From Promethearchaeota archaeon (lineage in GTDB: Archaea; Asgardarchaeota; Lokiarchaeia; Sigyniarchaeales; Promethearchaeaceae), in contig JABCSI010000001.1 in the NCBI GenBank assembly GCA_018238965.1, forward strand, positions 1 to 55,416: 55,416 nt of DNA, read 5' to 3'. Of this stretch, positions 33,973 to 41,974 are shown piece by piece (the first letter of the stretch is position 1; every line of letters starts with the position of its first letter). The translations under genes were made by a program, and so were the position numbers. The notes under the pieces are model-generated. The model worked only from the letters and a program-made list of their open reading frames with translations, ran no database searches and was not told the origin of the DNA.

Positions 33973-34833
33973 TTATTTGCATTCCTTTTTCTTCAGTTTA
34001 AATGCTTTTATGATTTTTCTCCATTTTAATGAGGGGTTTCCATACAAGCTGATTGCCCCATCAATATCTGAGAGTAATATTCTTGGATCATATAACCATC
34101 CTTCATCCTTATTGAAGGATACGCATAAAACCTTTTCTAATTGGAGATTATTTTGTAAAATTAACCCGTATATGGCTACCTGCGGTAATGATCGTAAAAA
34201 ATAACCTTCAGGTTTATAATCGACGATGATTAGACATTTTTCGTGAGGATCCCACATAAGAAGGTCAATATGGCCTGTGATCGAATGAGGAAACTGGCAA
34301 TTAAACAAAGGTTCATTATCCTTAGAAATAATAAATTGTTCTAATGAAGATTTTCGGCGGGTCCAGACAGGAACTTCTGTGGATAATGTGAAATCGTGGG
34401 TTAATAGGATTTGGGTCAAAATATCATCGTGGGATGGCTTGTAATCTAAAAATCCTTGGTTCTCATACTCTATAAAAACTTCTTTTGTAATTTCAATCAA
34501 AGAACAGATGTGTGAAAGTTCAGGGGATTTGTTTACTGTAGAAATCGTAAATGGTATGATTTTATTCTGTTCAATTAAGCTTAATTTTATTTCTGTTTGT
34601 GCTCCTCTATGCAGATGCTTTATTCGGAAACTAGAACATCTTAGAATTCGAGGATTATTAAATAAATCATGAGGAATGTTCTTTTGGGAGATAACCTGAA
34701 AATATTCTGTAATTTTTTTTGCGGATTCTATAGGAATTTGTGCAATTACATCCCTTTTTTTGGCCCATTTGAACACATATTCGATTCGATTGTGTTCAAA
34801 TCGAATTTTTTGATAATCATCCATTGCACTCAA
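33973..34833 (-). CDS. PD-(D/E)XK nuclease-like protein, RecB/Cas4 type, copy A
   Basis: A 286-residue protein whose C-terminal half has the RecB/Cas4 core in the right order: GHIDLL with the metal-binding Asp, the strand LIIVDYKPEG (D-x-K) and the LPQVAIYGL helix supplying QxxxY. The N-terminal half has its own conserved block (RILRCSSFRIK) shared with the neighbouring paralogue. No Cas4-type four-cysteine cluster is visible. The expected activity is nucleic-acid cleavage or end processing; the target is unknown. No CRISPR, helicase or methylase lies nearby. Confidence 0.75.
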   Translation of the reverse strand: MSAMDDYQKIRFEHNRIEYVFKWAKKRDVIAQIPIESAKKITEYFQVISQKNIPHDLFNNPRILRCSSFRIKHLHRGAQTEIKLSLIEQNKIIPFTISTVNKSPELSHICSLIEITKEVFIEYENQGFLDYKPSHDDILTQILLTHDFTLSTEVPVWTRRKSSLEQFIISKDNEPLFNCQFPHSITGHIDLLMWDPHEKCLIIVDYKPEGYFLRSLPQVAIYGLILQNNLQLEKVLCVSFNKDEGWLYDPRILLSDIDGAISLYGNPSLKWRKIIKAFKLKKKECK

Positions 34834-34894: not shown

Positions 34895-35704
34895 TTAAAG
34901 CGAATAAACCACATTTAGCCATTCTAAATCAGGATTTCCATACATTTTTAGATATTCAGGTATCACTGTGCGGATAATTTCAGGGTTGTATACCCATGCT
35001 GATTCACGATCAAAGGAAACACACTTAACATTATTATATCCAATGATTTGCTTTAATACTAATCCATAAATTGCAACTTGGGGGAGAGACCTTAGGAAGC
35101 TCCCCTCCGGTTTATAATCTGCAACTATTAAAGAACCATCTCGTTCATCATAAAGAAGAATATCAATATGTCCAGTGAATATCTCATCGGCATCACAATT
35201 AAATTGGGAGGGTTGAATATTTCGATTATTTATGGCATCCAGTGTTACCGTCCATATTGGTAATTCTGTTGCTAATGCTTGCTCATTTATCTCCAATATC
35301 TTCGTTAAAATTGGATCATGCCCTGGATTTCCATCACTCAATTGACAATTTATGTCGTACCAAATTTGAGCCATCCGGGGTAATTTACCGATCGATTTGA
35401 TAGGGAAATTTTCTGCATTTTTCTTTGTAATTACCGATACATGATGATTTTTAATGAGTTGGAGACTAATTTTTTTCTGTCCATGGGTTATCAAATTCTT
35501 AATTCGAAAAGATGAACATCTCAGCCCATTTCGTTGATTGAAAAAGGATTCTGGAAATCCTCCCGATTGTGTAAATCGAATAAACTTCAATAATTGAGAT
35601 CCATACTTCTGAACAATGACAGGTCGCGAAAAGCGAGATTCTGCCCACTTGAGGGTATATATTAGACCATTATGATAAAAATCGTGGTGGGATATTTCAA
35701 CCAT
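34895..35704 (-). CDS. PD-(D/E)XK nuclease-like protein, RecB/Cas4 type, copy B
   Basis: A 269-residue paralogue of copy A, 61 bases upstream of it on the same strand. Conserved blocks line up: GLRCSSFRIKNL, GHIDILLYDERDG, LIVADYKPEGSFLRSLPQVAIYGL, VKCVSFDRESAWVYNP. The Asp/Lys and QxxxY residues are intact in both copies, so neither looks like a dead copy. Outside these blocks they diverge strongly, which points to an old duplication with specialised partners or targets. Confidence 0.75.
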   Translation of the reverse strand: MVEISHHDFYHNGLIYTLKWAESRFSRPVIVQKYGSQLLKFIRFTQSGGFPESFFNQRNGLRCSSFRIKNLITHGQKKISLQLIKNHHVSVITKKNAENFPIKSIGKLPRMAQIWYDINCQLSDGNPGHDPILTKILEINEQALATELPIWTVTLDAINNRNIQPSQFNCDADEIFTGHIDILLYDERDGSLIVADYKPEGSFLRSLPQVAIYGLVLKQIIGYNNVKCVSFDRESAWVYNPEIIRTVIPEYLKMYGNPDLEWLNVVYSL

Positions 35705-38495: not shown

Positions 38496-39599
38496 TTAGA
38501 TTTTTAAATCTTTGTTCATAATTTGGAAGCTTGAGCTTCTAACTATCGCAGATTTAAGGAATTGGAAACCAATATTCACAGTGGATCCATCTCCACCTAT
38601 ATGGATAACATATGGCACTTCTTTCTTGATTCCTTTGTTATACATAATTCGGTAGGCGGTAGAAATTGCATCTGCGACAGTAGCACCTGATTCAAAGAGT
38701 TGGTGCATCCATGAGACATTCCAACTAGAAACATCGTCTTTACTGGTCGATACTTCCACACAACATGTGTTATTCACATAGATGATGTTTTCTTTGGCAA
38801 CCAATTGAGCTGCTGATGCTAATTGGTTTAGCATAAAACCTGCACCGCACCCTCCGCATAAACCATGACCTGGGTTCAGATGTTTTTGAGGTGGTACTTT
38901 GGAATGCTTAACAGAATATCGAAGTTTGCGGTCGTCCACTCCAAATTGTCCCAATAATTTATTAAGATTGGCATTGCGAGCTTTTACTTGACCGAAGAGT
39001 TCATCGATATTCGTTTCTAGGAATTCAGGTTTGAAAAGATGACGGAATTTTCCTTGAGATTTCAGAAGTTCAATCAATTTCTCATCGTTGGTTCCAATAT
39101 AATCATTTTCATTCTCAGGTTTAGCCATTCCAGGTACAGTGTTATAGTAGTAGGTGGGTTCACCATTTTTAACCTTAATAGTTATTAACGGCCAATATCC
39201 TGATTCAGTAGCAATTTTTGCAATCCGATTTGTATCTCCACCATCATGGCGCCAACCTCTTGGGCAAGGGGCATAAATTTGAATAAACCCGCCTCCCGGT
39301 GTTTTCATGGCATCCATTACTTTACCTATGAAATCCATTGGATAGGCGACATTGGCGGTGGCAAAATAGGCGCTTTTGTGACCTAATAAGGAGAAACCAG
39401 GCAAATAATCTTCTTTAATACCAATTTTTCCCTTTATTAGTTCTCCTCCAGGACCAGTTGTGGTAGAGGCACCGTAGGGGGTGGTTCCACTTTCTTGAAT
39501 ACCGGTATTCATGAATGCTTCATTGTCATACCCGATATATAAAACAGTGTTACGCTCGGAACGAGCTAAAATGTCTTCCATTTTTATGGTTGTAGTCAT
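38496..39599 (-). CDS. porB: Pyruvate:ferredoxin oxidoreductase beta subunit, circularly permuted
   Basis: The 367-residue ThDP- and Fe-S-binding subunit has its two parts in swapped order. Residues 1-225 match the part that normally follows GDG: LYIGYDNEAFMNTG (21-33), SGTTPYGAST, CPRGW with C112, and SQGKFRHLFKPE. After a linker, residues 244-367 match the normal N terminus: PGHGLCGGCG (C248, C251), NNTCC (C279/C280) and HIGGDGSTVNIGFQFLKSA (GDG 336-338). The ThDP motif GDG...N is thus split between the ends, and the helix at the break appears twice (ILARSERN at 10-17; QFLKSAIVRSS at 346-356). All cluster cysteines remain. The start has GAGGTGATT upstream, 16 bases after the porA stop. Confidence 0.9.
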   Translation of the reverse strand: MTTTIKMEDILARSERNTVLYIGYDNEAFMNTGIQESGTTPYGASTTTGPGGELIKGKIGIKEDYLPGFSLLGHKSAYFATANVAYPMDFIGKVMDAMKTPGGGFIQIYAPCPRGWRHDGGDTNRIAKIATESGYWPLITIKVKNGEPTYYYNTVPGMAKPENENDYIGTNDEKLIELLKSQGKFRHLFKPEFLETNIDELFGQVKARNANLNKLLGQFGVDDRKLRYSVKHSKVPPQKHLNPGHGLCGGCGAGFMLNQLASAAQLVAKENIIYVNNTCCVEVSTSKDDVSSWNVSWMHQLFESGATVADAISTAYRIMYNKGIKKEVPYVIHIGGDGSTVNIGFQFLKSAIVRSSSFQIMNKDLKI

Positions 39600-39615: not shown

Positions 39616-40842
39616 TTAGAAATTAACCTCCCACATTTTGCCTTTGCTTTCTCGGACTCCCAGATAATCATACAATTTTCCACGATTATCGTTCACATCC
39701 CTCATCTTCATGGTTGCATATTGTATTTCATCTTTGGTTACATCCCGACCACCCAATCCAACAATAAAGGATCTGAGGATTATTGGCAATCCAACAAGAG
39801 ATGTACTTATAGATGCAGCCACGGGAGGAAGATGACCAGATAAATCATCATCTTTCTCAAGAATGAAGATTTTTTCGATATTATGATCCTCGATAATTTT
39901 TCGGAGTTGTTCTGCAGGGAAGGGTCGCCAGGTTCGGAGTTTTATTAAACCGATTTCTTTATTATCTTCCATCCAAGTTAAGATATTTCCTACCATGGAG
40001 CCCATCGTTATACAGACAGTCTTGGAAGGGTTATCCAAATTATAGGTTTCAATTGAATGGTACGCACGTCCCGTCATTTTTTCAAAATCTCGGAATGCTG
40101 TCTCGATTTTATCCAGAACAGTATTCTTTTCCAATTCAAGGGCAAGCCGTCCTTCCATAAAGTAATCTGGAGTAATAAGACTTCCCCATGTTCCGGGTCT
40201 TTGGGTTTGTATATGATGTCGAGGTTTCTTCGGAGTGTATTTCAAGACATCTTCATCGGGGATTGCCATGAATTTTTGAGCACTGTGGGAAATAATGAAT
40301 CCATCATGCACAAAATGGGTTGGAAACAAAGTATCTTCAGAAATTCGTGAAGCGATGATGGAAGCATCATATGTTTCTTGGACATTTTCCGAGACGATAC
40401 AATTCCAGCCAAATCCTGACAATAACGTGAATTCCCAAGAGTTCCAAATTGAAATATTTGGGGAATTAAATGCTCTTGCTGAAATCATCATTGTTAAAGG
40501 TACACGCCATCCAACAGGCATTGGTAGACATTCAGCCATTAATAATAATCCTTGGGAGGCCGTGGCAATAAACGTTCGCGCCCCAGCTGCACATGTAGCT
40601 GTGCTATATGCTAAAGCTGCGATCTCGGATTCTACATTTACAAAAGCTGCCTTTAATCGACCATGGTTGACAACATCGGATAGTCCTTCTACTGATTGGG
40701 TTTGAGGCGTAATCGGGAAGGCACAAATCACATCAGGATCAGTTTGTGTAACTCCCCCGGCGACCGCGTAGTTACCAGTCATTGTTAATTCAACGGGTTC
40801 TTTGATTTTTTTAAAGAATGGGTTCATTGGTTGTACTGACAT
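39616..40842 (-). CDS. porA: Pyruvate:ferredoxin oxidoreductase alpha subunit
   Basis: A 408-residue alpha subunit carrying the pyrimidine-binding domain of the ThDP enzyme that converts pyruvate and CoA to acetyl-CoA, CO2 and reduced ferredoxin. Motifs in normal order: TGNYAVAGGVTQTDPDVICAFPITPQTQSVEGL, VESEIAALAYSTATCAAGARTFIATASQGLLLM, SWEFTLLSGFGWNCIVSENVQETYD, FPTHFVHDGFIISH and the C-terminal VGLGGRDVTKDEI. The alpha subunit is not permuted. GGTGA lies just after the porGD stop and serves as its ribosome binding site. Confidence 0.96.
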   Translation of the reverse strand: MSVQPMNPFFKKIKEPVELTMTGNYAVAGGVTQTDPDVICAFPITPQTQSVEGLSDVVNHGRLKAAFVNVESEIAALAYSTATCAAGARTFIATASQGLLLMAECLPMPVGWRVPLTMMISARAFNSPNISIWNSWEFTLLSGFGWNCIVSENVQETYDASIIASRISEDTLFPTHFVHDGFIISHSAQKFMAIPDEDVLKYTPKKPRHHIQTQRPGTWGSLITPDYFMEGRLALELEKNTVLDKIETAFRDFEKMTGRAYHSIETYNLDNPSKTVCITMGSMVGNILTWMEDNKEIGLIKLRTWRPFPAEQLRKIIEDHNIEKIFILEKDDDLSGHLPPVAASISTSLVGLPIILRSFIVGLGGRDVTKDEIQYATMKMRDVNDNRGKLYDYLGVRESKGKMWEVNF

Positions 40843-40854
40843 TTTTTTTTCACC

Positions 40855-41835
40855 TTAACATTTCATCCTCATGGTCAAAGCCTTATGCTTTTCACCAGTT
40901 TCTTTATCTTTCTTACCAGGGCATACTTCCACACAATTTCCGCAGCCTTTGCAATGGAATTCATCAACTCCGACTACTTCCCATTTTCCATCTTTTTCTT
41001 CCCGTAAAATACAAAAATCGGGACAAATGAAGGCACAATTGCCACATTGAATGCAATATTCGGGGTGGTATTGGGCAACTGAAATGCCCCATGCTCCAGT
41101 ATTAACACGGCGAGATCCTCCATCTATTTGATCAACATGCCAAACACCTGCTAGATCCCATTCTTTTGCACCAATATTATCTATTTTGATATGACTCCAA
41201 GCAGTTTTGAAATCTTTATCGTAGGATAATTCCGGTGCATTTTCATCCATAAACACTTGTGTTGCATCGGGTACCACTTTAATGGCGTCTATATTTTTTT
41301 GGGCAATTTTTGGACTGAATTGTTCAGCAATTGCATCGGTTAGTTGGGCAAGTGTAAAAATTTCGGGGGCAACTTTCAATAATGCACCCAAAATCAATGT
41401 ATTGGTAATATTTCTCCCTAAATATTCAAGTGCAAGATTAGTTGCATCGATCAGTGCAATATGGATTGCAAGAGGGTTATTTTTTCCAATAATTTCCTTG
41501 ATTTCTTCTATTGGCCGGCATGTATTAATGACTAAAAAGCCTCCAGGTACCATTCCGGCTGTACAATCAACATCAAATAGCAAAGAATCATCCAAAACAG
41601 CAACATATTGTGGAGAATAGACTTGTTCATTGGTTCTGACCTTTTCATAATTTTGTGACATTTTAACAAATGAAGCAACAGGGGATCCCATACGTTCTGC
41701 TCCAAATGTTGGCATACAAGTTGCCGGACCATCAAATGCCATTGAACAAAGTTGTGCTGCCGTGACTGCTCCTTGTCCCCCTCTTCCATGGAACCTAACG
41801 AGGAAACGGGGTGCGTCTTTCACGATTTCAGACAT
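40855..41835 (-). CDS. porGD: Pyruvate:ferredoxin oxidoreductase gamma-delta fusion subunit
   Basis: A 326-residue fusion. The gamma part (residues about 8-185) has RFHGRGGQGAVTAAQL, TFGAERMGSPVASFVKMS and NTLILGALLK. The delta part (about 195-326) is a ferredoxin with two [4Fe-4S] motifs: CIQCGNCAFICPDFC and CKGCGNCVEVCP. Normal order is kept. GTGA just before the ATG at 41835 favours that start over a GTG at 41850. It is the first gene of the operon porGD-porA-porB. Confidence 0.95.
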   Translation of the reverse strand: MSEIVKDAPRFLVRFHGRGGQGAVTAAQLCSMAFDGPATCMPTFGAERMGSPVASFVKMSQNYEKVRTNEQVYSPQYVAVLDDSLLFDVDCTAGMVPGGFLVINTCRPIEEIKEIIGKNNPLAIHIALIDATNLALEYLGRNITNTLILGALLKVAPEIFTLAQLTDAIAEQFSPKIAQKNIDAIKVVPDATQVFMDENAPELSYDKDFKTAWSHIKIDNIGAKEWDLAGVWHVDQIDGGSRRVNTGAWGISVAQYHPEYCIQCGNCAFICPDFCILREEKDGKWEVVGVDEFHCKGCGNCVEVCPGKKDKETGEKHKALTMRMKC

Positions 41836-41974
41836 AATTATTTCACTCAATCCTATTTCGATAAAATTTCACGAAACGTTGGTTTTGAAAATCTTTTAAA
41901 ACTGAAAAAGTTTGTGCGCCTTTACCATAAAGTATTTAGAATAGTGTAGAAAAAAAACTGAAATAGATAGGGCT

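Follow-up and report, generated by a model that had tools for sequence, protein, structure and literature searches.

The nearest known relatives of the locus analyzed here are three structurally characterized 2-oxoacid:ferredoxin oxidoreductases (OFORs) and the canonical PorB proteins of other Asgard archaea. PorGDAB of Methanosarcina acetivorans (9bt4), the nearest solved structure for the alpha, beta and gamma subunits, has the same subunit set and cofactor residues, but in the Lokiarchaeial complex the beta halves are swapped, gamma and delta are fused, and the alpha subunit lacks the arginine that holds the carboxylate of the substrate. The beta subunit of Moorella thermoacetica oxalate oxidoreductase (5c4i) matched the protein from the window (the whole stretch of DNA that was analyzed, 55,416 nt) in the same two swapped pieces in our PDB search (chain 5c4i_C), and its 315-aa delta chain is, by length and matches, a gamma-delta fusion like the porGD of the window; however, it has the canonical beta order, retains Arg109, and reads YPIRP in place of the FPITP of the window (PMC5020499). 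The two-subunit OFOR of Sulfolobus tokodaii (5b46-5b48) belongs to the same superfamily and shares the PITP motif with the window, but differs in its canonical order, its subunit make-up and its arginine, which is present and essential (PMC5020499). Substrate carboxylate is bound by Arg114 in the PFOR of D. africanus, by Arg344 in S. tokodaii and by Arg109 in oxalate oxidoreductase, and single mutants of this arginine were inactive or strongly impaired (PMC5020499). In other Asgard archaea (families f8-f29), canonical PorB carries the same motifs, and its profile matched both halves of the window protein, yet its order is CxxC-GDG-DNE-C, unlike that of the window protein. We found no title or abstract in the open-access literature that describes a permuted ferredoxin oxidoreductase or a permutation of Lokiarchaeal PorB; preprints and most subscription papers were outside the scope of that search.

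The beta-subunit gene of the window is an open reading frame of 367 codons on the minus strand, with an ATG start and no interruption. Its parts are as follows.

38496..39599, minus strand: porB-like gene for a circularly permuted OFOR beta subunit, 367 aa, recognized from its ORF, its translation and its swapped two-piece matches
39501..39530, minus strand: YDNEAFMNTG, residues 24-33, the second half of the ThDP/Mg motif, here at the N-terminus
39264..39266, minus strand: Cys112 of CPRGW, invariant, the expected fourth [4Fe-4S] ligand
39033..39056, minus strand: QGKFRHLF, residues 182-189, from the canonical C-terminal region and inside the match to profile positions 132-317
38895..38954, minus strand: approximate junction of the canonical C-terminus with the canonical N-terminus, residues 216-235; the profile match stops at 215 and resumes at 236
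38844..38873, minus strand: PGHGLCGGCG, residues 243-252, with Cys248 and Cys251, the canonical N-terminal CxxC cluster motif
38760..38774, minus strand: NNTCC, residues 276-280, in which Cys280 is invariant and Cys279 variable
38586..38594, minus strand: GDG, residues 336-338, the first half of the ThDP/Mg motif, here at the C-terminus, invariant

We took CxxC - C - GDG - about 24 residues - DNE - CPxGW as the canonical order of an OFOR beta subunit, and the window protein did not conform to it, its order being DNE - CPRGW - CxxC - C - GDG. In the phmmer search of the PDB, residues 233-355 matched positions 2-116 of chain 9bt4_C and residues 17-151 matched positions 117-247. A profile derived from canonical PorB of Asgard archaea (17 sequences) likewise matched with its positions 132-317 on window residues 18-215 (1e-47) and with its positions 14-133 on residues 236-358 (6e-32), and the reversed window sequence, used as a control, gave zero matches to it. 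Against a doubled copy of the window sequence the same profile aligned to the second piece and then the first, with ~22 additional residues where the old break lies. The old C-terminus and the old N-terminus are both retained and are fused near residues 216-235. The window ORF encodes an OFOR beta subunit whose halves have changed places. The cysteines expected to hold the cluster (C248 and C251 of the CxxC, the further C280, and C112 of CPxGW) and both parts of the ThDP/Mg motif (G336-D337-G338 and D25-N26-E27) are present, and every one of these residues was invariant in 35 permuted sequences, down to 50% identity. Mean column identity over the whole permuted alignment, both junctions included, was 72%. 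An earlier, sequence-only reading had proposed the circular permutation, the uninterrupted frame, the retention of all cluster and ThDP/Mg ligands and the separation of GDG from its partner Asn, one at each end of the chain, and all of this was borne out. Its motif order was also right, although it put YDNEAFMNTG at 21-33 instead of 24-33. The Pfam TPP_enzyme_C score of the protein was 20.6 against a cut-off of 21.9, and the NCBIfam PorB equivalog score was 212 against 405, hence below the cut-off; we attribute these low scores to the permutation.

An AF2 model built from 35 sequences had a pTM of 0.82 and a mean pLDDT of 75. In the model, strand 19-25 ends at YDNE and strand 330-336 leads into GDG; confidence fell under 50 across most of residues 28-70, a stretch that should face ThDP and PorA. 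All 23 Foldseek matches with E up to 0.001 were PFOR or oxalate oxidoreductase, but they covered only part of the chain and local confidence at residues 28-70 was weak. The alignments spanned 154-260 columns with TM scores of 0.25-0.34 by query length. This partial coverage and these low TM scores are as expected when a sequential aligner meets a permutation.

Two genes upstream encode the partner subunits.

39616..40842, minus strand: porA, alpha subunit partner, 408 aa (PF01855 1e-45, PF17147 1e-10, 9bt4_B 9e-52)
40405..40452, minus strand: PorA residues 131-146, SIWNSWEFTLLSGFGW, where others have ..D..D...RD.GW; the substrate-carboxylate arginine is absent
40855..41850, minus strand: porGD, fused gamma and delta, 331 aa (TIGR02175 5e-43, above cut-off; ferredoxin domains; matches to 9bt4_E and 9bt4_G)

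We found porA 4-55 nt upstream of the permuted porB in 51/51 loci with enough sequence, preceded by the fused porGD in 48 of them; co-encoded alpha, gamma and delta subunits, expected of an OFOR of this type, thus occur as porGD-porA-porB in the window and in those 48 loci. The window PorA keeps the PITP (FPITP) and VESE motifs. At the carboxylate-binding segment, Lokiarchaeial PorA reads SIWNxWE(F/Y)-variable-GW, and the arginine was missing in 61/61 sequences, as against 25/25 other alpha subunits that kept it, among them the paralogues of the window genome, a Sulfolobales sequence and the locus L099, with KRDAIW. A pyruvate enzyme would be expected to have both the PITP threonine and the carboxylate arginine in its alpha subunit, and only the former is met here. 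The Lokiarchaeial PorA partners grouped in a single clade (100/100) whose stem is 1.5, parallel to PorB, and the NCBIfam PorA equivalog score was 281, short of the cut-off of 550. The claim that the neighboring porA is normal fails at one important position, since every Lokiarchaeial partner lacks the arginine matching Arg114 of D. africanus PFOR; for the same reason the name PorB, in the sense of a pyruvate enzyme, is not established. The window genome also carries at least two canonical-order beta paralogues with an arginine-bearing alpha subunit adjoining (G000:C322:1000-4500, L166; G000:C4:17500-19888, L167), and the permutation is therefore limited to the porGD-porA-porB operon.

Since the PorA arginine is lost although it binds the substrate carboxylate in every characterized relative, substrate recognition probably changed together with the permutation. 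Given the arginine loss, the paired long stems and the unmet equivalog cut-offs, we describe the Lokiarchaeial complex as a distinct, co-diverged OFOR subfamily and not as a pyruvate enzyme; it is probably active and working like PorGDAB, an activity that is inferred, on an uncertain substrate. A stronger version, in which the complex is a functionally new OFOR acting on a non-pyruvate substrate and the permutation and arginine loss mark a new substrate class, is possible and we hold it only tentatively. The residue missing from all 61 partners is essential in the Sulfolobus OFOR (PMC5020499), alpha and beta both sit on long stems, and neither subunit reaches its NCBIfam POR equivalog cut-off, but the PITP threonine, the VESE glutamate and the ThDP and cluster residues are retained, the arginine might be replaced by another residue, and the nearest solved relative by sequence, 9bt4, is a pyruvate enzyme. 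Such a reading is compatible with a permuted OFOR and adds to it. With similar reserve, and at somewhat less than even odds, we suggest that Lokiarchaeia have a separate OFOR class, made of a permuted beta and an arginine-less alpha subunit with another substrate or another mode of holding it, which took the place of the ordinary pyruvate enzyme at the root of the class.

The search of Asgard genomes for the same order, proposed in the sequence-only reading, was made with a permuted profile over 228 genomes. Permuted porB was found in 66 of the 83 Lokiarchaeia genomes (61 complete and 5 partial, the count taking in full-length and contig-end-truncated permuted matches), spanning families f1, f2, f3, f4, f6 and f7, and no full-length permuted match was found by this search in the 145 other Asgard genomes. 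In these others, the matches listed cover one half (about 21-205) within frames of ~330 aa; direct reading of about twenty of the 145 showed the canonical order, and the canonical spacing from GDG to YDNE was exactly 27 residues in 17/17 Asgard sequences. The nearest relative, Ca. Harpocratesius repetitus FW102, is a 4.36-Mb single contig in which the gene is collinear over residues 1-367 with 88% identity. The chromosome record CP070831 also carries permuted porB. Among the 17 class genomes without it, a Lokiarchaeial porA reaches the contig end in several (G024, G033, G158), and others seem to have no operon. A pattern-based scan over 84,980 species, able to reach no more than close relatives, detected no other carriers, and the absence beyond Asgard rests solely on it. 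We noted that a 3.7-kb contig filed as Bathyarchaeota (L088) has a permuted porB that groups inside Sigynarchaeal sequences; a binning error is therefore the simplest explanation, and the contig is probably misbinned.

When 25 permuted PorB sequences were rotated to canonical order, they formed one clade (100/100) with a stem of 1.22 changes per column, and from this single clade we infer that the permutation arose once. The canonical order is taken as ancestral because it is universally distributed. The break separates the helix that follows GDG from the strand leading to YDNE. Over its first 20 residues, the segment following GDG resembled the canonical helix better than any of 1000 shuffles (0/1000 as good), but no likeness to that helix was found at the N-terminus, in the residues that precede the strand leading to YDNE, where 639-779 of 1000 shuffles were as good. 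A helix at both ends of the chain had been claimed; only the C-terminal copy is recognizable. Tandem duplication with trimming is the standard route to circular permutation, and we infer it here without having demonstrated it; the duplicated sequence that it would be expected to leave at the break was not detected at the N-terminus. The absence of a recognizable duplicated helix there would also suit a porB that was split into two genes and re-fused in the opposite order. We regard this second route as unlikely, as no convincing separate half-genes were found in the 83 class genomes, apart from contig-end pieces or clear relics, and the internal junction preserves both old termini, C and N, in full.

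In four genomes belonging to two genera, permuted porB contains an insertion of 30-31 nt with a hairpin after DNEAFMNTG, in each case with a bulge-helix-bulge fit.

L080, 2920-3060: porB insertion
L093, 5983-6120: porB insertion
L098, 5977-6120: porB insertion
L102, 5983-6130: porB insertion

We applied the bulge-helix-bulge rule of two 3-nt bulges around a 4-bp helix, with cuts after the second bulge base, and the excision derived from it restored exactly NTGIQESG in all four. The helix had 4/4 pairs in L098 and L102 and 3/4 in L080 and L093; the cut fell at a common position in L080, L093 and L102, and the L098 junction lay 6 nt further on. The excision that restores NTGIQESG was unique among the 155 (L080), 122 (L093) and 222 (L098) excisions that leave the frame open, and in L102 it was one of four equivalent among 151. 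A loose scan for the structure was uninformative alone, as it matched 59/60 intronless loci, and a stricter scan also matched 165/400 shuffled windows. The scans being unspecific, the weight rests on the coincidence with an excision that restores frame and consensus. These insertions fit strict or near-strict archaeal bulge-helix-bulge introns, with splicing inferred in the absence of RNA data. Translational bypassing was considered and rejected, no matched in-frame take-off and landing codons being apparent by eye. Bulge-helix-bulge mRNA introns are documented in crenarchaeal cbf5 (PMC2738675); we found no description of them in Asgard archaea in the open-access literature, preprints and most subscription papers again lying outside the scope.

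Several rearrangements were also noted around porB. In E44_bin85 (L101, 5980-6090), porGD-porA is followed by a porB stump that is broken after ..DNEAFMNT, near the intron site of other genomes, and a complete porB lies on another contig (L095, 3702-7065) beside a gene for a 714-aa cysteine-rich protein, without porA. In BC3 (L093, 2965-5983), porB has no upstream porA and is preceded by a 963-aa treble-clef zinc-finger protein. It is possible that mobile elements target porB. At five loci an intact porB is followed, 0.8-2.5 kb downstream, by a truncated extra porB 3' end that spans about 41-118 codons and includes GDG.

L067, 2106-2231: truncated porB 3'-end copy
L048, 6147-6269: truncated porB 3'-end copy
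L026, 562-684: truncated porB 3'-end copy
L094, 2963-3085: truncated porB 3'-end copy
L076, 3602-3934: truncated porB 3'-end copy

The intact porB and the 3'-end fragment of L094 are separated by a PIN-domain (VapC-like) pair, and the sequence past the fragment matches what follows the intact porB in L048, as if a module came in with its own porB 3' end. Elsewhere in the window, two tandem related ORFs (33973-34833 and 34895-35704, minus strand) share GHID.LL..VDYKPEG.FLRSLPQVAIYGL and resemble, by eye, PD-(D/E)XK nucleases.

An inactive, moonlighting relic could account for the long stem branches and the missing arginine, but we consider it very improbable, as the cofactor residues are all invariant over a wide divergence and the operon with its ferredoxin subunits is conserved. 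A misassembly or chimeric join of two porB fragments was excluded, even though the window comes from a 374-contig draft and extra porB fragments and contig breaks lie nearby in some relatives, because the same order and junctions recur in 66 genomes from independent projects, including the 4.36-Mb single contig and CP070831, with the 72% mean column identity extending across both junctions.

We therefore favor, with a probability of roughly 0.9, a PorGDAB-type OFOR with a permuted beta subunit whose fold should be nearly unchanged and which is probably active. The order, its conservation, the operon and the single origin are its established part; a PFOR-type fold is predicted, and activity and cofactor geometry are inferred. 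In an ancestor of Lokiarchaeia the two original termini of the beta subunit would have been linked and new ones created in the loop that separates the post-GDG helix from the strand leading to YDNE, leaving the folded domain nearly unchanged. GDG and DNE would then stand at the ends of neighboring strands and jointly bind ThDP-Mg, and Cys112, 248, 251 and 280 would hold the proximal [4Fe-4S] cluster. The roles of these beta-subunit ligands are taken from established PFOR structures. With GDG and DNE meeting and the four cluster cysteines in place, decarboxylation of a 2-oxoacid with PorA should persist; the permuted beta subunit and PorA would yield acyl-CoA, the electrons passing via PorGD to ferredoxin. 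The complex may thereby feed an oxidative 2-oxoacid degradation like that proposed for Prometheoarchaeum in its syntrophy model (PMC7015854).

A natural, class-wide permutation that runs through the cofactor motif of a core anaerobic enzyme tests how chain order matters in the ThDP fold. With an arginine considered essential lost alongside the permutation, substrate recognition in the superfamily becomes open to direct testing. Since the permuted protein scores low in profile-based annotation, the oxidative 2-oxoacid step may be overlooked or misnamed when the metabolism of archaea near the eukaryotes is reconstructed, which is relevant to syntrophy models such as the one for Prometheoarchaeum.
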